Assembly: GCA_030549335.1 (NCBI GenBank)
Contig: CM060189.1
Span: 33,875,001 to 33,939,000 of the forward strand
Direction of reading: 5' to 3'
Source: Pontederia crassipes
Lineage: Eukaryota > Streptophyta > Magnoliopsida > Commelinales > Pontederiaceae
Length of the DNA: 64,000 nucleotides
Below are positions 10,461 through 33,744 of the stretch, piece after piece (position 1 is the first letter of the stretch; each line of letters opens with the position of its first letter). The notes under the pieces are model-generated. The model worked only from the letters and a program-made list of their open reading frames with translations. It did not search any database and was not told where the DNA came from. Made by a program: the position numbers and the translations under genes.

Positions 10461-10715
10461 CATATGCTAAAGGGCTTGCAATGCACCCCTTTTGCACCAC
10501 CCCCTGCTCACTTTTCAGACTTTTCCTCACTAGAAAACATCAGTTAGTTCGAGCATCTTTTTTCTGATTGAGCTCTCCACCATGTCTGCTAGTTACCAGT
10601 TTCTGTTCTCTTTTGTGTCTCCCTCATTATAAGTCATTCGCTAACCTTGTAACCCATCTCCACTAGCATCGCAGGCCGGAGAGGAGAGACTTCCATTGTC
10701 GGAGGGAGAGAGAGA

Positions 10716-11366
10716 ATGGCAGAAAATAATAGACGGGTGAAGAGGTACGGCAGGTGCATGAAGAACCACGCCCTGGCCACCGGAGGAAGAGCCCACGATG
10801 GTTGCCTCGAGTTCATGCTCGACGCCACCAACCACGACCCCGCCACGGTCCTGCACTGCGCAGCTTGTGGCTGCCATCGGAGCTTCCATCTCCCGGACGG
10901 CGACTTCTCGGTCGCCCTCTTCCATCAGATGCAACAAAGGCAACAAGAACTCGCCGCTGGGGGGCCTTTGCCATACCAGCAAGCGCTGCACAATTACCAG
11001 TTGATGTTCCATCAAGCTGAGGCGCCGGTGCCGTTGGTGGCCCAGACGGACGAAGGTGATCGCAGCGCGATGGGAGTTTTGGCGCAGCGGATGACGACGC
11101 AGGAAGAACGGAGGGAGCAGATGCAGACCTTCGCCGAGCGCTTGGGGTGGCGGGTCCGGAGGCAGGACGAGCACGCAGTTCGATTGTTCTGCTCCGAGAT
11201 GGGAGTGAGCAAGAGGGCTTTCGTGTCCTGGATGCGTAGAAACAAGAAGCCGAAGGGTGCCAGCTCGTCGGAGGCCTCCGCTCCTGCTCCGTCGCCTAAT
11301 GATAGCGGCGGCATGTTAAGGGCCTCGTCGTCAGAGGCCGCGGCTTCTTCTCCGTCGCATATGTAA
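10716..11366 (+). CDS. Zinc-finger homeodomain (ZF-HD) transcription factor
   Basis: This intact single-exon gene of 216 residues is a plant-specific nuclear DNA-binding protein. The ZF-HD dimerisation zinc finger is at about residues 10-60: RYGRCMKNHA, then GGRAHDGCLEFM, then LHCAACGCHRSFH, with all expected Cys and His ligands. A ZF-HD-type homeodomain is at about 122-180: RMTTQEERREQMQTFAERLGW, ending FVSWMRRNKK (recognition helix with the W..N pattern). The tail is rich in Ser, Ala and Pro. The gene is GC-rich and intronless, as is normal for the family. The ATG is preceded by purine-rich GGGAGAGAGAGA. A TATA-like ATTATAAG lies near 10626. A Copia-like solo LTR lies just upstream. The subfamily member was not assigned. 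Confidence 0.94.
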   Translation: MAENNRRVKRYGRCMKNHALATGGRAHDGCLEFMLDATNHDPATVLHCAACGCHRSFHLPDGDFSVALFHQMQQRQQELAAGGPLPYQQALHNYQLMFHQAEAPVPLVAQTDEGDRSAMGVLAQRMTTQEERREQMQTFAERLGWRVRRQDEHAVRLFCSEMGVSKRAFVSWMRRNKKPKGASSSEASAPAPSPNDSGGMLRASSSEAAASSPSHM

Positions 11367-19300: not shown

Positions 19301-22300
19301 ACCCTTTGTGTGTTAGAAAGTATAACTATGAATTAGTCACAGGACTTTGGGCTTCTGATGTCAGGCTTAATATTGAGAAGTATAACCCTAAATGTGTCAT
19401 GTCACATGCCCATGCACTGGCTGGAGAATGAAATTCTGGGCTGGTCTTGTATTGTATATCTCATTTCTTGCTCCATGTTTACTAAGAAATTTCATCCTGC
19501 GACAATGTATGGCTGGATGATTAACAATCTTGGTTAATTATCCTTTACTCGCTAAAAAAAGGCTTTGAATGCCTACTTTGCACAAGTCGCATATACAGAA
19601 TTCAGGATCTCTACTTTATCTTCATCATTCTTTTATTTCTGTGATTCATAGTTGGTATCAGTCCCCTGTCCTATGTGTTTCTTATTCAATTGTGCATGCG
19701 ACTCATCTAGATGATGGTGAAGATATCGAAGGGTTGCCCACGGAAGGTGTAGAGATAACATGCTTCAATTTGGTAAGATAATCCAAGACAAATATTTTGT
19801 CAAAATATTAGCTCAGCTTCAGATATAGAGTTCGAACAGCTACTATTTGGCTCAAGATTTTCATTTGTTCCTTCTCAAAAAAAAAAAAAAAAAGATTTTC
19901 ATTTGTTAGCCTCCATAGTAACCGACCCCACCTAGTGGGATAAGGCTTTGTTGTTGTTGTATTTGTTAGCCTCCATAGTCCATACCAAATCTTTTAAAGA
20001 TACTTCTTACCGTTCTCTTGGTATGATGAACTTTTATCTGCTTAGTTGAAAAGCTTTTATGTTATCCTGATAAAAATGGTTCATTTGACTGTTACTTCAT
20101 CACATGGAGTAGACAACTTAACATGCCTTGCTTAGAATCACTTTTGTAATATGCAAAAATCAATTTCAAACTAAGTTTTTGTTTATTATAAAAGAAAATT
20201 CATGGACTTAGTACATGCAGAAAATAAAAAGTTAAAATATGAAAGGTCCTACTGTGAGACTCAGATATCTTGATCTACATCCATGTTATTTATCTTCTTT
20301 TACACCTTTCTTTTTTTATGCCATTTTGGGTTCATGTTCTGCAGTAAACTTATCCTCGTCTTTGGGAGCATCCATAAGATGCATTTTAATCTCATATTCT
20401 GTAATAAAGCTTACCCTTAAATTTGGAGGCATCCATTAGATGCATTCAACAAGGCTTCAGCTCATAGTAGGCACGCAATTACCAAAAAATTATCAGAATT
20501 TCCTTGAGTATCGTTCATTTTCTCATTACATGAGTGATAAACTAAAGTAGAAATTCAGTGGAATAGCATCTATAGGGTGCTTAAACAGTGGCTAACTTTT
20601 TAGCTATGTAGATCAAAGTATAGTCAAGTTGATCTTGTAATCGACTCCATTTGTTTGATGCTATCATGCTAAATAAAGTTTGGTGGGTTGCTTGAACAAT
20701 TGCTTTTGATGACTTGGTGGAAATGGTTTGGTTGTGTGCTTATTTCTGGTTGGTGCAAGCTAAGTCTATGTTTGATACTAATCTTATTGAATGTGTTATA
20801 TCCTGGTGATGGATAGTGTTTGCTTGTTGAAATAACCTGTTTGGTGTAACTATCTAATGCCATTAGTCAGGATTAGAAAATCTTATTTGTCCATAAGAGA
20901 AGATTGGGTAGAGCTGCCTAGAGCCATACATTGTAGAAGTTTATGTTTACCTCGTGTTTTTGGAAAATGATTGCACCAACATAAGCAACCATTATTGACT
21001 TTTCTTTTGATCATTACTACCTGGCCTTATACTTTTTACTTGTATTGCAGGATGGCGCACATTATATGATCTACACACCATCTGATCCACTTTTATTTGT
21101 GGCTATTAGGGTAGGTAGTGTATTTCCTTTTCTTCGTATGTCTTAAAAATGTTAATTTGCCTCTGGAAAGTGAATGATGCTAAGGTATTTTGAGTTTATA
21201 TGGAATTTCAATGCTATATATATCTTATGATGAAGGTTTTACTTGTGCAGGACAAAAAAGGTGATTTGCAGATCGCTGATGATGTAAGAAAAGAACCCAT
21301 TTTTCATATTCTTCTTAATTCAGTGGCTAAGATCTTTATGCTGATTCTTTTCTTTTTCAAATTCTCCTATATTGATTCTTTTTGTTGTTTTCAGTTAGTA
21401 CATGTTTGTGCTCCCTCCCAATAATCCCTTTCAGTCAGGAAGTTCTAGCTGCATGGAGTTTGCCTTTTTTTAATTGCAGCATTTTCTTCCACTATTGCTT
21501 TGAGATTTATGCTCTTTGGTTTTCTTCTTTTTTGTTGTTTCTTTTACATTTACCTGTCACAAATCGTCCAATAGATCAAACAGTCATTAGTAAAATGGCC
21601 ATGTTTTATCTGTGTCATAAGTATATGCAAATATGTATTACCATGGACAAGACATCTCTTCTCAGGTATAGAGTTTTAAAATGACACTATTTTTCCTATT
21701 ATTAGACGAACTGCTTTGTTGTTATTCTAGCGATAATCTAGGCTAGCCAACTTTCAAGATGCAGATTGTCATATGTGAATTGACAACAACAACAACAACA
21801 AAGCCTTATCCCACTAGGTGGGGTCGGCTACATGGATCATACGACGCCATTCCGCTCTATTAGTAACCAAACCTTTCGGTATATTATTCACCAATAGATC
21901 TTGCTCTATTAGTTCGCCAAGTGTCCGCCTTGGCCTCCCTCTCCCTCTTTTAATCGGACTCCAGATTATTTGATCTACTCTTCTTACTGGCGCATCTAAT
22001 GGTCTTCTCTGAACATGACCAAACCATCTCAAACGATTCTCTACCATTTTCTCACTAATAGGAGCCACTCCGACTCGTTCACGTATATGGTCATTCCTAA
22101 TCTTATCTAATCTTGTATGACCACACATCCATCTCAACATCCTCATTTCGGCTACCCCCACTTTACGTTCATGTTGTCCCTTCATAGCTCAACATTCACT
22201 ACCATATAACACTGCTGGCCTTATAGCAGTACGATAGAATTTTCTTTTAACTTTATTGGGTACTTTTCTATCACAAAGAACTCCAGTGGCTTTCCTCCAC

Positions 22301-25216
22301 TTACACCAACCAGCTTGAATTCTATGATTAACATCGTCATCAATCTCACCATCTTGTCTTACAATTGATCCTAAATATTTAAACTTTGTCACTTGAGGAA
22401 TTATATCCTCCCCTAACCTAACTTTCAAATCGTCTCTAAGTTGTTTATTTGTGAAATTGCTATGCATATATTCTGTTTTATTCCTACTTAAACGAAAACC
22501 CTTTGACTCCAACGTATTTCTCCATATTTCCAATTTTGTATTAATCTTTTCTCTTGAATCCGCTAAAAGTACTATATCATCCGCAAATAGCATGCACTTA
22601 GGTACCTCCTCTGTGATACTCTCGGTTATAGCATCGATAACTAAGTTAAATAGATACGGGCTTAAAGCTGATCCTTGATGTAGGCCAATTCCTATAGGAA
22701 ATTCATTTGTCTCACCTCCGGGTGTCCTAACCCTAGTCAATGCCCCATCGTACATATTTTGTATTACCTTAATGTAGGCAACATTCACCCTCTTCTTTTG
22801 CAAGGCTTTCCAAAGTACATCCCTTGGTACCCGATCATACGCCTTCTCTAAGTCAATGAAAGCCATATGTAAGTCTCTTCTCCTACTTCGATACTTCTCC
22901 ATCATCCCCCTTAGTAAATAAATCGCCTCTGTAGTGGATCTTCCTGGCATGAACCCAAATTGTCTCTCAGAAATACTAGTCTCCATTCTCAATCTATGCT
23001 CAATCACTTTTTCCCATAATTTCATAGTGTGACTCATAAGTTTAATCCCTCTATAATTTGCACAATTCTGAATATCCCCTTTATTAGATGTCACCTCAAA
23101 AGGAAAATTACTAGGTGCTCAGACAGATGGCTGACAAAATATATTTGTATTGAAGAAATTTATGTGTCTTTTGGCCTTTCTACTCTTCTAACTTCTCATA
23201 AAACAGGATCTTCTAGAGGACCCTGCTGTTGTTGATGCAGTAGACGAGGAGACCGAATTTAATGCTCTTGTGGTATGTTTCTCTTGTCCATGCAACTTTA
23301 GTTTTGAGGATCAAGTTTTACATGAACCTCTAATTGTTTAGAACTATCTTGGCTTAAATGCTGGAAACATTGTTTAAATGTATTCACGTCACAAGAAGAT
23401 GTATGCCAATAAAGACTATAACTTGTTATGAAAAATGGCCACATCTTGAATCCATCAAGGGACTCTACCATGGCATGCAAGCATGATCAAATGCCGATAA
23501 GCCCATTTTGATAATAAGGCTTTATTAGCACCCAAACCCCCAAGCCATCTTCTGTGCAAGGTCGGCATATGTCCTTCCATGCAACAAGATGTACGCCATG
23601 GTTAAAATTTTAGGGTCTTTCCAAAAAAAAAAATGCTTTGGATTGAATTAAGGCAGGTTTCCACAGATCTTGGTACCGTAAGGACAGACATCTTATAATA
23701 TATTAGAATTGCCGATAATACAGAACACACCAATGAGAGACGATTACCCCTAGACAAGAGTTTTGAACACCATTCCTCTGCTATATTTCCAAATTTTTCG
23801 ATAATCAGTGATAATTCCTTGGATGGCATTTCTTATTATATAAAGGAAGGCCCAAATAAGGTAATGGTAAAGTACCAATAGCAGTTTGTAATGCCCCCGA
23901 ACAGTCAATAGCCATCTGATCCTTCATACCTAAAGAAATGAAAGTGGATTTCAGCCGGTTAATATATGTATTTAGGTTTTAACCATTTAGCAGTTAATGG
24001 ACATCCCTTAATCTCTATTCACACATGAATATCTTCATAAGATTTTATTTTTCTCTTAATATTGTGCCGTAACCAACTCCGCCTATGTTTTATAGCCGGT
24101 CCCAAGTCCGGATAAAGGAGGAGGGTTGTGTTAGGCCCCGACAGCTAGCGTAAAACCCTGTCGAATCTTATGAACATGGATCAATGAATGAGCGGAATGG
24201 CGTCGTATGATCTATGTAGCCGACCCCACCTAGTGGGATAAGGCTTTGTTGTTGTTGTTGTATTGTGCCGTAACCATGTGGATGTACATGGGGAAAAACA
24301 GCGTCAATACTGTAACCTTACTTCAAGTCATAAATACAAAAACTTGGCTGTTATTTGAATTGGGATCTAGAATATCAGACGTTTTTATATTTGATGTGTG
24401 ACCTAAAATATCACAATATTGACATTTTTCAGGGATGTTCTTTGTGCTATTAGATATTATACATCACTTGTTCTCCTAATTTATTAATACATTAACTCCA
24501 TTCGGTCAAGGAACCAGCTTAGAATATTGAAAAATGAGTTGGTGTGACAATTACCCAGTGACAAGTATTAGTAATATTTTTCCCTTTCAGCTGGCGTTCC
24601 GACCAGCAAAGCCAAAGGTAGATCTTGGTGGAAATATATGCTAATGTGGTAATGATGAGGGGGCTTCAGACCCTGGGGGTAGAGGAATGTTTTATCCCAA
24701 AAAACTTACCTTGTAGCCATGATGGAGAATACCCATATGCTCATTTGGATAATAAGTTAAGGAAAAACTACCAATGTTGATGGTTCATACTCGGGAGTAA
24801 CTACAGGTCTATGTCATCTGAATGTGTCATCCAAGTTTTTTTTTTATCATTTTGCTTTGCTAGCTGTATTTTGTATTTCTTCATATGTTTGCTTTGTGCT
24901 ATATTAATACACCCTACAAACTTAATCTCCTGGATTAATCATATGAACTGTTTTTCAGTTTAGTTGTGAGTTCATATAAATACTTAGAGGTCGGTGTCTC
25001 TTATATTTTATCATTTGCCATGCAAAGGGCATTTTATATCTTCTCCTTCTCGGGTTGTATGCTACATCTGTTGGTTGTCTATTTACTTATTTGGGTTTAA
25101 CATGTTTAATATCTTTTCCATAATAGCATTTTTTTTTCGGTGGGCCATAATAGCATTTTTAAAATCTGCAGGAAGAGGAGGCAGCACTTTTTGAGTCACT
25201 GTTGGGAGAAAGATAA
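13359..25216 (+). CDS. DUF3727-family protein, probably plastid-targeted (10 exons)
   Basis: This complete gene encodes 324 residues. Exons: 13359-13775, 16900-16997, 17081-17126, 17641-17723, 18027-18091, 19711-19772, 21051-21110, 21251-21283, 23207-23272, 25172-25216. All introns are GT-AG and the phases join correctly. Exon 1 is GC-rich and begins MTSLPAASPSPCYTKPHASS, a Ser/Pro/Arg-rich sequence typical of chloroplast transit peptides, and then has a basic low-complexity stretch. The conserved domain starts at FVLDEYGKVLMASSKR. It continues with VCVIRRVF, DDCMLLCPVD, DDEVEAILPAAAYALAKIHM, GEDIEGLPTEGVEITCFN, YMIYTPSDPLLF and a C-terminus ending EEEAALFESLLGER. This is the plant DUF3727/DUF1292-type family; its biochemical role is unknown to me. 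In-frame ATGs upstream (13146) were rejected because the family begins near MTS. The introns carry many retroelement insertions. Confidence 0.92.
14116..14168 (+). mobile_element. 17-bp poly-A insertion with 18-bp target duplication
   Basis: An insert TTTATTCTCCTAAAAAA (14134-14150) is flanked by perfect 18-bp direct repeats AAGTCCCTATCATCCTTT at 14116-14133 and 14151-14168. The A-rich 3' end and the repeat length fit target-primed reverse transcription by a LINE that stopped almost at once. It lies in intron 1 of the DUF3727 gene. Confidence 0.7.
14272..14333 (+). repeat. Probable LINE 3'-end fragment
   Basis: The sequence TGGACGACTACCCACC, then TAGTCATCCTTCC and a short A run, resembles the 3' end of the LINE fragment at 16163-16213 (TGGATGGCTGCCCACG, then TAGCCATCCTTTTACC and an A run). 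It is likely another 3' terminal LINE piece in intron 1. No target duplication was found. Confidence 0.4.
15110..15299 (-). mobile_element. RTE-tailed (Au-like) SINE with 16-bp target duplication
   Basis: On the minus strand this reads CTCCGCCTATGTTTTATAGC at its start, then GGATAAAGGAGGAGGGTTGT, then GACCCCACCTAGTGGGATAA, and ends in a TTG-repeat tail. Direct repeats TTATTTTCTCCTTTCA flank it at 15094-15109 and 15300-15315. The 3' region and TTG tail match the end of the RTE LINE at 21783-23099, as known for Au SINEs. Intron 1 of the DUF3727 gene. Confidence 0.85.
15510..16213 (+). mobile_element. LINE ORF2 3' end (zf-RVT), interrupted by a SINE
   Basis: The frame from 15516 reads a zf-RVT-like segment, CILCKRSKEDIDYLSSVCP, then KVLWQLRRF and WTIWLQHNHYFFFGKERC. 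At 15798 it is broken by a SINE (15799-15994) and it resumes after the second target-site copy at about 16016. A 3' UTR with TGGATGGCTGCCCACG...TAGCCATCC and an A-rich end near 16213 completes it. It is 5' truncated and lies in intron 1 of the DUF3727 gene. Confidence 0.75.
15799..15994 (-). mobile_element. RTE-tailed (Au-like) SINE nested in a LINE fragment, 21-bp target duplication
   Basis: This is full length and closely similar to the copy at 15110-15299. Perfect 21-bp direct repeats flank it at 15778-15798 and 15995-16015 (starting TTGGAAAGGAGAGG). The CAA-repeat end on the left is its 3' tail on the minus strand. It splits the LINE open frame, so it is younger than that LINE. Confidence 0.9.
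17281..17331. repeat. TA microsatellite between 16-bp direct repeats
   Basis: A 19-bp AT-alternating run (17297-17315) lies between perfect direct repeats TGATAATTTGTGATAT at 17281-17296 and 17316-17331. It could be a tiny insertion that expanded as a microsatellite, or a local duplication. Intron 3 of the DUF3727 gene. Confidence 0.5.
17806..17884 (+). mobile_element. 5'-truncated RTE-tailed SINE or LINE end
   Basis: The segment reads AACATGGATCAACGAGC, then GTCGTATGATCCATGTAGCC, GACCCCACCTAGTGGGATAA and a TTG tail. The CAACGAG segment before GCGTCGTATG fits the SINE better than the LINE. It lies in the intron just after exon 4 of the DUF3727 gene. Confidence 0.8.
18186..18241 (+). mobile_element. 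26-bp A-rich insertion with 15-bp target duplication
   Basis: Insert 18201-18226 (TCGCTT, then an A-rich run broken by a G, ending GTG) lies between perfect direct repeats AAATTTGTTGGCAAA at 18186-18200 and 18227-18241. It is consistent with a minimal LINE-mediated insertion. Intron 5 of the DUF3727 gene. Confidence 0.6.
18417..18575 (+). repeat. Possible tRNA-derived SINE
   Basis: The sequence TTTAGTTGGTTAAGC resembles a pol III A box. About 30 bases later, GGGTCCAAACATC resembles a B box. The spacing and order fit a tRNA-like head. The following 100 bases end in a short A run near 18570. The boundaries are approximate and no target duplication was confirmed. Confidence 0.4.
18727..18958 (+). 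repeat. Possible second tRNA-derived SINE
   Basis: GGGTAGAGTGGTAAGCAGC resembles an A box. GAGTTCACTC about 35 bases later resembles a degenerate B box. The stretch ends with an A-rich run near 18950. It is in intron 5, next to the other tRNA-like repeat, and differs from it in sequence. The family was not identified. Confidence 0.35.
19190..19413. repeat. Tandem duplication of about 112 bp
   Basis: Two adjacent copies start CCCTTTGTGTGTTAGAAA at 19190 and 19302, and share GGGCTTCTGAT.TCAGG and AATGTGTCATGTCACATGCC. They differ by a few substitutions and small indels. Non-coding, in intron 5 of the DUF3727 gene. Confidence 0.8.
19854..19907 (+). mobile_element. 22-bp poly-A insertion with 16-bp target duplication
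   Basis: Insert 19870-19891 is CCTTCTC followed by 15 A residues. Perfect direct repeats AAGATTTTCATTTGTT flank it at 19854-19869 and 19892-19907. The CTTCTC-plus-poly-A end resembles the end of the LINE at 2885-2911. It is an extreme 5' truncation. Confidence 0.8.
19901..19979 (+). mobile_element. 41-bp RTE/SINE tail insertion with 19-bp target duplication
   Basis: Insert 19920-19960 contains only the last part of the RTE/Au family: ACCGACCCCACCTAGTGGGA, then TAAGGC and the TTG tail. Perfect 19-bp direct repeats ATTTGTTAGCCTCCATAGT lie at 19901-19919 and 19961-19979. Its left target copy overlaps the right target copy of the preceding 22-bp insertion, so two events hit the same site. Confidence 0.92.
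21783..23099 (-). mobile_element. RTE-type LINE, 5' truncated
   Basis: Minus-strand frames 23094-22189 and 22185-21814 encode most of an RTE reverse transcriptase and C-terminus. Visible motifs are NYRGIKLMSH, RQFGFMPGRSTTEAI, FIDLEKAYDRVPR, GLHQGSALSPYLFN and the catalytic FADD (in MLFADDIVLL). The C-terminal region includes MLRWMCGHTRLD, RLRWFGHVQRR and RGRPRRTLGE. A TGA stop replaces the usual Trp codon between YGSEC and AMKGQ, so the copy is dead. It ends directly in GACCCCACCTAGTGGGATAA plus a TTG tail (left end). It sits in intron 8 of the DUF3727 gene, antisense to it. The 5' boundary is approximate. Confidence 0.93.
23600..23835 (-). mobile_element. LINE ORF2 fragment (post-RT region)
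   Basis: The minus-strand frame 23829-23602 reads EEWCSKLLSRGNRLSLVCSV, then LSAILIYYKMSVLTVPRSV and SIQSIFFFGK. This matches the conserved stretch after the reverse transcriptase in plant L1 elements (LS.GGR..L..SVLS..PIY...). It is a fragment only, in intron 9 of the DUF3727 gene, with no clear ends. Confidence 0.7.
24076..24260 (+). mobile_element. RTE-tailed (Au-like) SINE with 16-bp target duplication
   Basis: This is a full-length copy starting ACTCCGCCTATGTTTTATAG and ending in the TTG-repeat tail. Perfect direct repeats TATTGTGCCGTAACCA flank it at 24060-24075 and 24261-24276. It is in intron 9 of the DUF3727 gene, sense orientation. Confidence 0.92.
25118..25160 (-). mobile_element. 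11-bp insertion with 16-bp target duplication
   Basis: Insert 25134-25144 (TTTTCGGTGGG) lies between perfect direct repeats CCATAATAGCATTTTT at 25118-25133 and 25145-25160. On the minus strand it reads CCCACCG followed by A residues, as expected for a LINE tail. The right repeat ends 12 bases before the last exon (25172), so the insertion altered the acceptor region of intron 9 without removing the AG. Confidence 0.6.
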
Positions 25217-26521: not shown

Positions 26522-28627
26522 GCCCGCTCGCCTTCAGCTCGCAGCTCTTGTCATCGATCTTTGTTTCTGGTCTCGTCTCTGCACCTCCTGTTTTGGAACT
26601 TGTTAGGATGCGTGGCTGCATCCCACCATTGGCTCTCTTGGCTTTTACATGGATTAGGCTGCTTTTGGCTTCATTCTACTCCCTCTCTGTCACAACCCAC
26701 GAGCTGGATGAAAGAGTCTATAGGTCGCATTTATACAATCTCTGTGTTAATCTTCACGCAGTCCCATTATAACAAGCTAATGGAGAAGCTGTAAGGTACT
26801 CCTCATTTCTTATATGTAAATTTCTATTAATTATATAACGGGAACATATTTTATTTAGATCGAAGACTGGAACATAATTTAGTCGAGCTAATAATTGCCC
26901 GAGACAAGCTGCATGATACTTACTGCTTACATATCATGTTTTTCTCAACGTGCATAAACTAACAAGAAGCATGCAATTGATATTGATGCATACATACATA
27001 GACTTTGATGCAGAAATATTACAGTTAACCTGTGAAATTATATAGGCAAACAAATTATTCACTCAGGAAGTGGGATATCTGCAAGATCATCTCTGTAGGG
27101 TACTATCTCATTCCCTCCTCTTGTTCTCGCCTGGTCAAAATGATCAGACATTCCCTTCTCCATTTCTATCTGCGAGGCAACACAATCGGAGGTGTTTATG
27201 AAGGTGACTGCAGTGTCCTTCCTGAATGTCAAGTAGACGACTGCACAGATGTAGGCGGCCATCAGGGGGAAGACGACGATGCTGATCAAGACATTGGCGG
27301 CCTTTGGTAGGCTGCTGTGGACCAGCCAACCAATGAAGCTGGTGATCAGGAAGTACATGTTGATCCCTATGACGCCCAAACCAAGAGCCCATGATAGCAC
27401 AATGATCTGTATGCACCAAATAATTGAAGTACTACAAGTGAATATTATATTCTTTTTCCTAAATTAAGAAGGATTATACTTAACGCACATATATGGAATT
27501 TTTGTGAGGCCCCATTTTGGTCCGACTGCTGCTGAACTTGAGGAGGGGGATCAGAGCAAATGGCAGCTCAAAAGATAGTATCATCTGTACAATTTCATTG
27601 GTTAGATAACACAATAAGGTACACATAATAGTTACAACTAATTATATCATTACCGATGCTATTATGATGAGCCTTGCAGCTCCGGAAGAACCAGCAATGA
27701 CAGAGACGATAAGACTAGGAGCGATTGCAATTAGCCGAGTCAGGAGATTCCTTGTCCACTTCCTCATCTTAATGTCCAAGAACCCCTGCAAAATCATTAA
27801 TCGCAAGAAACACAGTTCACGCTTAAACACGAGCATGCATGCCTGGTACAAGAAACATGAAACTGCCATAGCATAATTTCTCCTGTCAGGGATAAGTTTT
27901 TAGTATATTGACATTATGCACCTGCATGATGTACTGACCGGCGTATGTGCCGGTAATCGTGGAGCTCTGTCCGGAAGCAAGTAATGCGATTGCATACACT
28001 GTTGAACTCGCTCCTCCCAAAACGTTCTATAAGAAGAGTGTTTCTAATTAGTTGGGAACAAGACAGCTCATGCTCAAAAAAATTTGACTAATAAATAAAT
28101 GATGCTGATTTCGATGGAAGGAGATCACCTTGAGCAGAAAAGATGAAGAGTTGAGGGTGAGATCGCTGCATCTATCAGCATCCTTAGGGGAGAGGTTTGT
28201 AGCCGAGCAGATAGTGCCGGAAACAGATATAACTGCAATGTTGATGAGCAGAGCCACAAACAACGCGAATCCACTTTCCCAAAGAAAGTATCTGCATGCT
28301 TCCTGTCGACGTATATATGTATATATGTTACAGGAATTATAGTCGAAGAAGGAAAAGAGCAATCAATTGTTTCTCACTGCAAAGTACATGCATGATATCT
28401 GCATGAACCATGCTTTTGTGGCTTGTTATTCCACTGATAATTAACAATTTTGTGTAGTAAATTTCTTTTTACACTTACGTTGATTCCTTTGACAGATGGT
28501 GGCGTTTTTCTAGATAACACCAAAGCCGAATGTAAAAACAAGTTGTGCCTGAGAAAAACGCTAACACACACACACACACGTGAACATAAGCAAAAAAAGA
28601 TATATTACTCAGAGAGAAGATGATCAT

Positions 28628-28714
28628 GTCATATCTTTTCAATGTGCATGTTAAATATATAGATGATGTACGTATAGAGCAATGGCGTCATATCTTTTCA
28701 ATGTGCATGTTAAA
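28628..28714. repeat. 28-bp direct repeat with exon-derived filler near the exon 7 donor
   Basis: The 28-bp sequence starting GTCATATCTTTTCAATGTGC occurs at 28628-28655 and 28687-28714. Between the copies is AGAGCAATGGCGTC (28676-28689), identical to 14 bases of exon 7 at 28748-28761. Copy B has a single unit and no filler. This looks like a repair event with templated insertion, 12 bases from the exon 7 donor. Confidence 0.75.
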
Positions 28715-29050
28715 GGTGACACTTACGGCACGACGAGGGTGCCCATGAGAGCAATGGCGTCGCCGGTGGCACCAGTGCCCTTGAGCTTGGGCACAAAGAG
28801 GCCCTTCATCACCTCGGTTGCCGGGGGCTTCACGTAGCTCAGTTCGCCGAAATAGCAAGCCGCCATGAGAAATACCAGAGCAGAAATTAATAACTCTAGT
28901 TTCCGGACCTGCTCAAAGTTCATTGAAGCAAACAATAAGAGAAGACATTCAAATCAAGAGGAACAATATCTGATAGTTATAAAACATAGGTTTTGGATAA
29001 TTTAACTAGTGTAATCAATTATTAGTAATTAGTTTAATTAACTAATATGA

Positions 29051-29233
29051 ACTCCGTCTATATTTTATAGCCGGTTCCAAGCCCGGATAAAGGAGGAGGA
29101 TTGTGTTAGACCCCGATAGCCAGCATAAAATCCTGTCGAATCTTATGAACATGGATCAACGAATATAGAATGACGTCGTATGATTCATGTAGCCGACCCC
29201 ACTTAGTGAGATAAGATTTTGTTATTGTTGTTG
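29051..29233 (+). mobile_element. RTE-tailed (Au-like) SINE at the NRAMP-A exon 6 donor
   Basis: This is a diverged full-length copy (ACTCCGTCTATATTTTATAG ... GACCCCACTTAGTGAGATAA plus TTG tail). Direct repeats TAACTAATATGA lie at 29039-29050 and 29234-29245. On the minus-strand transcript the exon 6 donor (29250, GTAACT) is followed within 5 bases by the target repeat and within 17 bases by the SINE. Copy B lacks it, so it arrived after the duplication. Confidence 0.9.
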
Positions 29234-30589
29234 TAACTAATATGAGTTACCCCATATCTCTGGAGGCCAAGAAGTAATAGGGTGCTCAACCCAGTGATCA
29301 GAACCCCACTCCAAACTGGAATATGAAACAAAATGTTGAGCGTAAAGGCTGTCCCTATAACTGCACCAAGAGCCAAAATAGTTCATTTATTAGATCCATT
29401 AAAGAAGGAAGAAGGAGGTTGTTGATCAGATGGCTGTCGATAATTTTATTCTCTAAGAGAGAAAAAATAATTCATTAAGCTTAGAAAGATTTTAAATTAA
29501 CCTTCAGGGATGTCAGCAGCGATCACAGCGACCTCAGCTACAATCCAGAGAAAGATCTTGACATACTTTGGGTACTCAGCTTTACAAAGCTCTGCGAGAT
29601 GCCTCCCTATATATACGTATTAAGATAATCCATTGCATGCATTAATCATCTGTCAATTTATATGATTTTTGTTTGATAAAGCACGAATAACTTGAAAAGA
29701 AAATATTACTTATTAATTACCTGTTGTTACTCCAAGGTTTGCTGCTAAAGATTGAATTATCAGCGCGAACACAAGCCCGATTAGTATGACCCAAAGAAGC
29801 TGTTAAAATTATTTCAAAAAAATAAATGACAACAAATTAATGATTGGCCTCCTCAGATCACAAATAGATATTTGTGTGAACTCATATATCACATTATCCT
29901 AATTGTCTCTGAGTTTGGACACTATGCTCAGTTTCAATTGGTATATAAAATAGATTCAATTTCCTTTTGTAAAAAATATTTTTTTTACATGAAAAAACTT
30001 CAAACTTCTCGTAATATTTAATTAGATCCGAAATTTTAAATCGGACAACTAGCTAGATCGAATTCGTAAATGTAGTTTGATTTGCGGCCATTTAAGTTAG
30101 GGTTTTGTTTTATTATTGAATTCGATATCGTTCCTATTTTGTTAGGATCAGGTTGTTCAATTTAATTATAATGATGTCTATCGCTAGCTCGAATCTAAAG
30201 TTTCCGAGTTACGGAAAGCTTGGCGTCCAACGTCGAATAATTGGAATAAAAACTCAACTCAGCACTGTCGTTTTAGACTACGTCCAACTATCTTCCTAAA
30301 ATTTTTAAATATATTTAAAAAGTTATGCTTATGAATAATAATATGTTTAGAAATTAGATATGTATAACGATGTCTAAAATAAATGGAATTAATTAGAGAA
30401 ATATTGTAGTTTTACAAACTAAATAATTTTAATATTAATTATATGCTTATTAATATATTTTTAGGTTATTCGCGTCAATCTAAAACTACATAAATGAAAT
30501 TAGTAAGGCTGTTCTTGTTCCATTTTACAGTCAGTTCTCTCTCTCTCCCGTGTCGGTAGGTGCGAAGTGTTGGGGTCGGATTTGTTGTT

Positions 30590-31475
30590 TTTTTCATGGT
30601 TATTAAAACCGGATCGGACCGGCCGGTTCAACCGGTTCAACCACGAATCGACTGCTGATCCGGTCCGAATTAATATGAAAAACGGAAATGAACTTGAATC
30701 GGGCAAAAATCGGTTCAACCGATAAAAATTGGTTCAACCACAAAACCGAAAAAATCCAGTTCAAATATAAAGTGAAAAAATAAAAAATAAAAGTAAAAAT
30801 AGGAAATAAAAAGTTAGAAAGGAAGGTAAAAAAATGAGAAAATATTTGAATTTAGAATTGGTAAAAATTAAAAAGGAAATAAATGTGGGAAATCAATATG
30901 GGAGAGAAATTAATGGAAATAAAAATGGAAAGTATTAAAACGGAAATAAAGAAGAAAATAAAAGGAAGTAAGTGTGATGTATGAAAATTTTAATTAATTT
31001 ATTATCATCACAAAATAGTATAAAATAATTAATATAGTATATCAACAATAATAACTTAATTTTTTATGAATATTAAAAGTTTTAATATCTTTTTATTATA
31101 AAAAAGTAAATAAATATGGGAATTAATGGGGAGAGAGGAATTAATGGAAATAGAAAAATAAAATATTAAAATTAAAGTAAAGAAAAAATAAACATGAGAG
31201 TGATATATGTAAAAATTAATTAATATATCATCATCCTAAAATAGTATTGAAGAATAAAATAAAAGAATTAATATACTATATTAATAATAAAACTTCAAAC
31301 TCTTTTTATGAAAATTAAATATTTGTTTATATGAATTATAAGCATTATATAATATTTATTAATATATATAATTATTTTAAATAATATTAATTTAATAAAA
31401 TCCGGTTGAACCAAGTTGAATCCGATCAATTCGATCCAACCACGACCCAGTTGAGTGGCGGGTCCGGTTGATCGC
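30590..31475. mobile_element. Possible hAT-like non-autonomous element
   Basis: The left end is rich in CCGG/GGTTCAACC motifs (AAAACCGGATCGGACCGGCC at 30605). The right end reads CCACGACCCAGTTGAGTGGC, then GGGTCCGGTTGATCGC. The core is AT-rich. Terminal motifs in inverted orientation (ACCGGATCGGACC against ATCAACCGGACCC) suggest a DNA element. It is absent from the matching intron of NRAMP copy B. No firm target duplication was found. Confidence 0.45.
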
Positions 31476-31477
31476 TA

Positions 31478-31554
31478 ATATATGGAGGATTTCAACTCCA
31501 TTAGTTCCCACCATTCATGCATGTTAATATCCAGATGGTCGAATTCGCTAATAT
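31478..31554 (+). repeat. Inverted repeat arm 1 (77 bp)
   Basis: This is the reverse complement of 32838-32914 with a single mismatch (T at 31506 against C on the opposite reading). The arm starts ATATATGGAGGATTTCAACT and ends GAATTCGCTAATAT. It directly abuts the right end of the possible hAT-like element. Confidence 0.93.
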
Positions 31555-32126
31555 TTGCGTGTACTGTAGAGTTCATTATTCAAAAGTGGCAATGTTGTGC
31601 CGTAGACTAAAAGGCTTTTGGGAAGTGCAATTGTACACACCACCATCTTCAAGCCAAATCATACTATCGATCACAAATTTCCATTGTTCTTGTGATAACG
31701 TAGACATATTTATTTATGAAACAACTAACTAAATATTCTCTACCCACTACATAGCTAACCTCTTTGTAGCCTTAGATGACATCTCACGCAGTACTTTTAA
31801 ATATGACATCCCTGAAATTTGAGGTTTTCTAGTTGAGATTGAAATCAAGATTCAAGAGACTATGACAATGGATATAAACCTCAAAAGGTTATCCACGTGT
31901 GAAATTCTCAGTTGCAATTTTTGTCTATTCTATATAAAACAGCTTCTATGATTTATCTATTAATGATTTCTCGAGAGGGTCTATCTTTTTGTATGTAATT
32001 TTTTAAATTTGAATAAACTTTTGTTGTTTTCCATGATGTGAATCTTTAAAATTCTTAAGGAAGGGGATGAATCTTGTAACAAAGTACAATAAAAATATAT
32101 CTTTTGATACCATCGACAATAGTGTA

Positions 32127-32127
<1 letters not shown>

Positions 32128-32186
<59 letters not shown>
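32128..32186. repeat. ATT trinucleotide microsatellite
   Basis: About 20 ATT units lie in intron 3 of NRAMP copy A. The flank that follows (AAAAATATTCAAGTTATATTC, then CCCGTCTTTTTG) matches the unit that is tandemly repeated three times next to TA microsatellites in copy B (57050-57430). The Asn- or Tyr-repeat open frames across it are artefacts. Confidence 0.95.
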
Positions 32187-32187
<1 letters not shown>

Positions 32188-32837
32188 CGCGCCAAGTTGA
32201 ACAAAAATATTCAAGTTATATTCTCCCGTCTTTTTGTTCCTATAGAAACAAGTCAATTAGGTATTCTTCCGTGTCATATTCATCTGGAGCACAAATAATT
32301 AATCGTAGTTAAACCATGAAAAGACTCAAGTCAGTTAGGTATTATGTCGATCCCTATATATTATTATAGATTAAGAATTCTTAATTTCGATATTTTTATA
32401 ATTATAAGTTCTAAAAAGGTTCGCATTAATGAGAAAACTTAAGAGTTGGTCTGGTGGGTATATGGAGTAATAACTAATAACGACATGTGCACTGACACTA
32501 CTAAAGTTTGCCACTTTACCGAAGAAACAAAAACTCCACGTAATTAATTAATGATCAAGAGTCAACGGTTCTAGCTTTCAGATCAAGTATGAAAATTAAT
32601 ATCACATGGGGCAGGTTTCAACATGCATGGAAATGGAAAGGGGTATTAATCTTTACAAATCACAAACGCTTGACTCTACTTGTACTTCCCTATCTCGATC
32701 TGCATATCGATAGCTATCTATTAATATAGAGAGATACATATATGCTACAAACCAATAACATTGGAGAAATTTATGCATGCATGCATGCGTAATAAAAACA
32801 TATATTATAAGAAAATTGGACGTTATGATCATTTCAT

Positions 32838-32914
32838 ATATTAGCGAATTCGACCATCTGGATATTAACATGCATGAATGGTGGGAGCTAATGGAGTTGA
32901 AATCCTCCATATAT
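32838..32914 (-). repeat. Inverted repeat arm 2 (77 bp), next to the exon 3 donor
   Basis: This is the partner of 31478-31554, about 1.28 kb away. It starts 17 bases into intron 3 of NRAMP copy A (donor at 32931). Copy B keeps the flanking bases (GAATTCAACCAT, then ATATATGTCTTAG) but lacks about 54 bp in between. Confidence 0.93.
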
Positions 32915-33744
32915 ATCTTGGTTTGACTCACCTCATATCGATGATTAGCTCCTGCTTGCAGGTCCGTTTCCACTGCACGCGACATGATTTAAAAAAAAAA
33001 CACGAAGATTACATGATCTGCATGTATACGTACTCATAAATCAAAACTCTTAAAACTTGACAAAGTAAAATTTCCACTTAATTTTTTGTTCCTTTGTTGA
33101 TATAATTTTCCAATGATATATGTATATATATACCATTAAGTGTATGAGAATATGAGTCTGGCGAAAAAAGGAATCCATTCGACGCGATTAATACTCGATA
33201 ATAAACCTAGAAATAAAAAAAAGTCAGAGAGCATGCGTATGTGCTGACTAATGACTCACAGTTGGCAGGATCAAGATAAGCTAAGGAAACGAGAAATCCA
33301 GGTCCAACATGAGCCATGAACCGTTGCCATCCGGGCTTCTGCATAATTATCATTAATTGATTACAATCCACGGACGGTGACAATCAATCAAAAAAAAAAA
33401 AAAAAGAAACATAATTTCTCAGGCATGAGTGCATGCATGCAGAACTGAAAATTAGTCGAGGGAAAAAATATGGAGGTGTAATTGATTCTAACCTTGTCTT
33501 GGGCATCTCCATCTTTGTGAGGTGACTGCCCTTTGGTGCTCTCTCTCTCATCCTCCTCACCACCTTGCAGTCCAGCCACTACTACTCTCGTGTCTTGAAA
33601 GCCTTCCCTCCCCCTGCTGCTGATTCGGCAGCCACTCGCCTGCTTTCTCTCCCCTGAGCACCACCACCCTCCATGTAGTAGAACTTAGTTTCTGCTACAA
33701 TTTTATATTGTTTTGAGTTGAAGCTGGCTGTGCTGACAGGAGCC

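Follow-up and report, generated by a model that had tools for sequence, protein, structure and literature searches.

The window analysed here is a 64,000-nucleotide stretch of the Pontederia crassipes genome (contig C7, CM060189.1, positions 33875001-33939000; the assembly spans 1.13 Gb in 43 contigs) that holds two genes for NRAMP metal transporters, both on the minus strand. We propose, with a probability of roughly two in three, that one of them, copy A, is a transition-metal transporter gene of the NRAMP1/5 type that arose by local duplication and was recently inactivated. In the assembly, the reading frame of its first exon is broken, and its two metal-site motifs depart from the canonical forms with different histories: DPAN, in transmembrane segment 1 (TM1), is shared with an open counterpart on a paired chromosome, and TLVV, in TM6, is private to the copy with the broken frame. 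These separate histories leave unsupported the view of an earlier note, which took the two spots jointly as the sign of a switch in substrate.

Throughout, copies A and B are called A7 and B7 where they lie in the window, and their counterparts on contig C8 are A8 and B8; a third NRAMP gene is named C11 or C12 after the contig that carries it. Residues are numbered after B7. Both window genes have 13 exons and 12 GT-AG introns, arranged as follows.

27059-33674, minus strand: copy A, 13 exons, with the ATG at 33674 and a TGA that ends at 27059
33493..33674, minus strand: copy A exon 1, beginning with the ATG at 33674; frame broken
33260..33338, minus strand: copy A exon 2, with DPAN at 33261-33272 and the first in-frame ATG at 33317 (M67)
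32932..32972, minus strand: copy A exon 3
29721..29799, minus strand: copy A exon 4
29502..29606, minus strand: copy A exon 5
29251..29360, minus strand: copy A exon 6
28727..28908, minus strand: copy A exon 7, with the T254 codon at 28738-28740 and the V257 codon at 28729-28731 (TLVV); its 3' end reads ACC CTC GTC GTG CC
28479..28548, minus strand: copy A exon 8, starting G CAC AAC, the remainder of PHN and TM6b
28129..28302, minus strand: copy A exon 9
27922..28026, minus strand: copy A exon 10
27654..27785, minus strand: copy A exon 11
27489..27584, minus strand: copy A exon 12
27059..27406, minus strand: copy A exon 13, including the stop codon
52442..58818, minus strand: copy B, 13 exons, an open frame of 565 amino acids, DPGN and ALVM-PHN

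For copy A, these boundaries bear out to the nucleotide the coordinates and the 12 correctly splicing introns that the earlier note had put forward. Exons 2-13 score 374.4 bits against the Pfam Nramp family (PF01566, cut-off 29.8), with copy B at 389 bits, and stay open over 506 amino acids and a stop, which makes 507 intact codons. The description of the rest of copy A as well kept is apt for exons 2-13 and the splice sites, and for a history of mostly purifying selection; it overlooked exon 1.

That exon measures 182 nucleotides in copy A, 177 in copy B and 180 in A8. At 33610-33614, a run of G counts five in A7 and six in A8, B7 and B8, and the shifted frame of copy A meets TAG TAG (33579-33584) after codon 30. 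One mark of a pseudogene, a broken frame, is thus present in the assembly sequence. Across the 200 nucleotides upstream of the gene and exons 1-3, no in-frame ATG lies upstream of M67, and five out-of-frame ATGs precede it.

In exons 2-13, 36 residues distinguish copy A from copy B, G84A, A254T and M257V among them. The contrast of DPAN and VPHN in copy A with DPGN and MPHN in copy B can be read directly at the places where it had been described; seen in full, the change in TM6 is from GALVMPHN to GTLVVPHN, that is, from ALVM to TLVV. In the passages of the literature covered here, to which all published residue effects given below are likewise confined, metal is contacted by residues 1 and 4 of each motif, residue 1 of the TM6 motif acting through its main chain (PMC5949535). 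DPAN, in which Gly84 is the residue changed and the ligands D82 and N85 are retained, therefore spares both TM1 ligands, whereas TLVV alters both TM6 positions: of the four classic metal-contact positions, two are hit, by A254T and by M257V. Of the metal-binding residues, the Met is lost through M257V and those of TM1 are kept; the statement that changes lie at exactly two spots, correct in that both motifs are altered, had missed A254T, the other ligand-position change in TM6. The canonical A/CxxM of TM6 is present in B7, B8, A8, C11 and C12; copy A has TxxV. Set beside the plant NRAMP1/NRAMP5 type (SLC11; poplar PcNRAMP1, rice OsNRAMP5), copy A shares the fold, the gene length, Asp82, Asn85 and PHN, and differs in having DPAN for DPGN, TLVV for ALVM and the frameshift in exon 1.

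The different origins of the two motifs emerge from contig C8, which has a collinear region in reversed order that holds counterparts of both genes. A8 (C8:42653382-42658898) occupies the same position as copy A and has the same 13 exons and DPAN, at a silent divergence (dS) of 0.083; it differs in its frame, open over 566 amino acids, and in its canonical ALVM. B8 is open over 565 amino acids and has DPGN and ALVM. Used as a query against the genome, exon 7 of copy A hits six places (A7, A8, B7, B8, C11 and C12), and TLVV occurs at one of them, A7. Because A8 also has DPAN, this motif is a trait of the whole A lineage, and TLVV is private to A7. The dS values of the other pairs are 0.060 for B7-B8 and 0.066 for C11-C12; the A copies are 0.17 to 0.18 from the B copies, and four further NRAMP-type pairs range from 0.023 to 0.054 over shorter stretches. 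C12 is open; C11 (C11:44601500-44611400) has lost 2 nucleotides in exon 9, which breaks its frame.

Published mutants allow some expectation of what the two motifs do. In poplar NRAMP1, G63A, which is equivalent to DPAN, behaves like the wild type for cadmium (Cd), manganese (Mn) and iron (Fe) in yeast, and M236A in the same protein abolishes Cd transport and impairs that of Mn and Fe (PMC9316961). M241T in OsNRAMP3 did not restore Mn uptake, and a change of M235 in OsNRAMP5 abolishes transport, according to a review (PMC13211123). On the strength of such Met mutants, we firmly expect A7 to have lost Cd transport, and would expect a loss of Mn transport as well, which is the likelier in a plant protein. 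A test of Met to Val in a canonical NRAMP was not found in the passages covered. In the open-access literature searched, DPAN appears in an engineered mutant and in no natural NRAMP, and no NRAMP with VPHN appears at all; NRAMPs with the canonical DPGN and MPHN turn up there in two papers. We also scanned for prokaryotic NRAMPs with VPHN, using a pattern of G, three free residues, V-P-H-N, a hydrophobic residue, a free residue, L, H and one of S/T/C/W/R; none of its 12 DNA-level matches in genome contigs lies in an open frame with DPxN, a weak negative from a codon-level pattern that lacks a positive control. The version with Met gave 0 of 12 in the same 12 genomes, which is uninformative, and its amino-acid form fits three NRAMPs. 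The proposal that both motifs mark a changed substrate is thus left unsupported on each side: DPAN is shared with the open A8, which keeps ALVM, and behaves as the wild type in poplar NRAMP1; TLVV occurs only where exon 1 is broken; and taken together, the motifs fit neither Nrat1 nor the magnesium (Mg) type.

Several points weigh against inactivation. Copy A has undamaged splice sites at each of its 12 introns and undamaged codons throughout exons 2-13, and the one-base frameshift, lying in a short G-run, could be an assembly error. When a codon model is fitted to the tree ((A7,A8),(B7,B8),(C11,C12)), for which seven branch settings were tried, the A7 branch has a ratio of replacement to silent rates (dN/dS, omega) of 0.209, and a value of 1 is rejected (twice the log-likelihood difference, 2dlnL, 10.29). 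The share of replacements is alike on the A7 and A8 branches (7:13 versus 4:17 replacement to silent changes, Fisher P 0.31). Two of the seven A7 replacements fall on the four ligand sites, with P 0.0024 under neutral weights and a post hoc choice of sites. Finally, M230A in DraNramp has a negligible effect on Mn and strongly cuts Cd (PMC10185341), and M235A in EcoDMT retains Mn and gains calcium (Ca) (PMC8806188).

The remaining estimates from the same model bear on the timing of any loss. A single omega over the whole tree is 0.141, and the A7 branch does not depart significantly from the remaining branches (2dlnL 0.66; 95% profile interval about 0.08-0.53). On the A8 branch, omega is 0.10 and 1 is rejected (2dlnL 20.61). 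The stem of the A lineage has 0.515 versus 0.122 elsewhere (2dlnL 8.62, in one of the seven branch settings) and is not different from 1 (2dlnL 1.27). The A lineage thus went through a looser phase before constraint set in on both A copies, and neutral time can make up at most part of the A7 branch. Reconstruction places on that branch the replacements F143I, A167T, V211L, A254T, M257V, E321K and I507V together with 13 silent changes, A254T and M257V each with a posterior of 0.99, and on the A8 branch four replacements and 17 silent changes. Given the two hits on ligand sites, a functional change in A7 may have come before its loss. The dN/dS near 1 along copy A, which the earlier note had named among the grounds for a simple pseudogene, was not found, and A7 likewise lacks the pseudogene mark of an omega of about 1 on its own branch, of which a recent loss would leave no trace. 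As A7 was mostly under purifying selection, its loss would have to be recent, unless the one-base difference in exon 1 reflects an error in the assembly.

Recent loss is the reading that we favour, and its course can be sketched. Following duplication, the A lineage would have exchanged Gly84 for Ala during its looser phase, a change that was presumably tolerated, and both A copies would afterwards have come under purifying selection. We infer that the C7 copy then gained A254T and M257V, lost the frame of exon 1 through the one-base shift, and acquired an inverted duplication within intron 3. Translation from the normal ATG would end after 30 codons, and a protein begun further in, at M67 just before TM1, would be without the thioether ligand; it should transport Cd poorly and, probably, Mn and Fe poorly too. 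A8, B7 and B8, which have canonical ligands and open frames, could cover the function. The duplication in intron 3 consists of two arms.

31478..31557, plus strand: inverted-repeat arm in copy A intron 3, the second copy relative to A8
32835..32914, minus strand: inverted-repeat arm in copy A intron 3, ending 17 nucleotides from the exon 3 donor

These 80-nucleotide arms are 97.5% (about 98%) identical, a divergence below the silent divergence of A7 and A8 (0.083). The arm has a single match in A8; at an expect value (E) of 1e-3, the B8, C11 and C12 loci and the rest of the window gave none. The inverted repeat may hamper splicing.

The strongest alternative, which we nevertheless hold to be unlikely, is that copy A encodes a transporter of altered selectivity, the frameshift being an error or bypassed by a start at M67, with a DxxN-TxxV site that moves Mn, perhaps Ca, and not Cd, and with TM6 changes that were selected. 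The purifying selection on A7 and the two hits on ligand sites speak for it, as do the DraNramp and EcoDMT mutants, the size of the frameshift, one base where the G-run counts five or six, and the Thr at the Ala position, which in the Mg transporter EleNRMT is an added hydroxyl ligand (PMC8806188). Yet the P value for the ligand sites is post hoc, and any two of the seven changes falling within three codons anywhere in the gene is unremarkable (P 0.26). The Met mutants of plant proteins are also unfavourable, M236A in NRAMP1 having hit Mn and Fe as well as Cd and M241T in OsNRAMP3 having lost Mn uptake, and TxxV is found at one of the six loci, with no sister copy sharing it. In its fullest form, this alternative supposes a plant NRAMP whose DxxN-TxxV combination, absent from the signatures in the literature covered, was selected on one chromosome set such that Mn was kept, Cd excluded and Ca or hydrated ions perhaps admitted, with the frameshift an error or a later event; we regard that as distinctly improbable.

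It is very improbable that copy A is a long-dead pseudogene in which all changes are neutral decay since the duplication. The frameshift with its two stops would fit, as would a stem omega that cannot be told from 1, but A8 is open and the 507 codons and splice sites of exons 2-13 are intact in copy A, and the tip omegas, far below 1 in both A7 and A8, reject it.

An assembly artefact is likewise very improbable; by that reading, copy A would be an ordinary gene whose frameshift, and possibly further private bases, come from sequencing or phasing errors. The difference in the G-run is a single base, and the NRAMP gene on C11, also an odd-numbered contig, has a frame-breaking indel where C12 is open. 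A254T and M257V, however, are substitutions 9 nucleotides apart, and 13 silent changes are spread along the branch, unlike indel-type read errors.

Comparison with non-canonical relatives leaves little room for convergence on either of two known types. SiNRAT (PDB 8ont) is the nearest solved structure to copy A (E 6e-203), as expected of any plant NRAMP, and the TM6 Met is absent from both Nrat1/SiNRAT and copy A. The two differ in TM1 (DPSN in Nrat1, DPAN in copy A), in TM6 (AxxT and PYN in Nrat1, TxxV and PHN in copy A) and in TM3, where Nrat1 has an extra Asp (Asp 140 of SiNRAT, matched by alignment, with chain numbering one above that of the paper) and copy A has Ala, reading VIAADIPEV versus VISDDIPEV. 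With none of the three tested sequence marks present (DPSN, AxxT and the extra TM3 Asp), a convergent Nrat1 is rejected. The NRMT Mg transporters (EleNRMT, PDB 7qia), to which copy A has a weak match (EleNRMT, E 5e-07), share with it a Thr at the first position of the TM6 motif and the lack of Met. They have DxxG, TxxA/T and a loss of both TM6b histidines (PMC8806188), whereas copy A has DxxN, TxxV and PHN...LHS; a Mg-type relative is rejected, as DxxG is absent and the Asn and both TM6b His are kept. A second origin of an Nrat1-type aluminium (Al) transporter or of a Mg-type relative, which the lost TM6 Met, a third DPGN position changed as in Nrat1 and a TM6 Ala changed to Thr as in EleNRMT might suggest, is scarcely credible. 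As to the Nrat1 type, copy A carries just those residues that fail in SiNRAT, where T241V impairs Mn transport and abolishes detectable Al binding and S68A removes competition by a trivalent ion (PMC10115441).

Beyond the two genes, contigs C1-C16 look paired, NRAMP positions indicating six of the eight pairs, and the odd member is the shorter in all eight. The paired contigs may be haplotypes of a hybrid or else subgenomes. NRAMP1/5-type loci are broken at two of three places on odd contigs (A7 and C11) and at none of three on even ones. Elsewhere in the window, reverse-transcriptase frames (Pfam RVT_1) lie at 22189-23118 and 380-925, both on the minus strand, and the stretch 21789-23085 matches C8 in the opposite orientation at 94%. 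On the plus strand, 10653-11366 holds a small gene for a zinc-finger protein, in which Pfam recognises a ZF-HD dimerisation domain; it sits in sequence that runs collinear with C8 at 93%.

If copy A is the ordinary failing duplicate that we favour, it shows cleanly how comparing paired chromosomes can tell a motif change that is shared and tolerated (DPAN) from one that is confined to a failing copy. Should its selectivity instead prove to be altered, nature would have provided a test of the single residues that let a plant root NRAMP pass Mn and refuse Cd, with direct use for low-cadmium crops.

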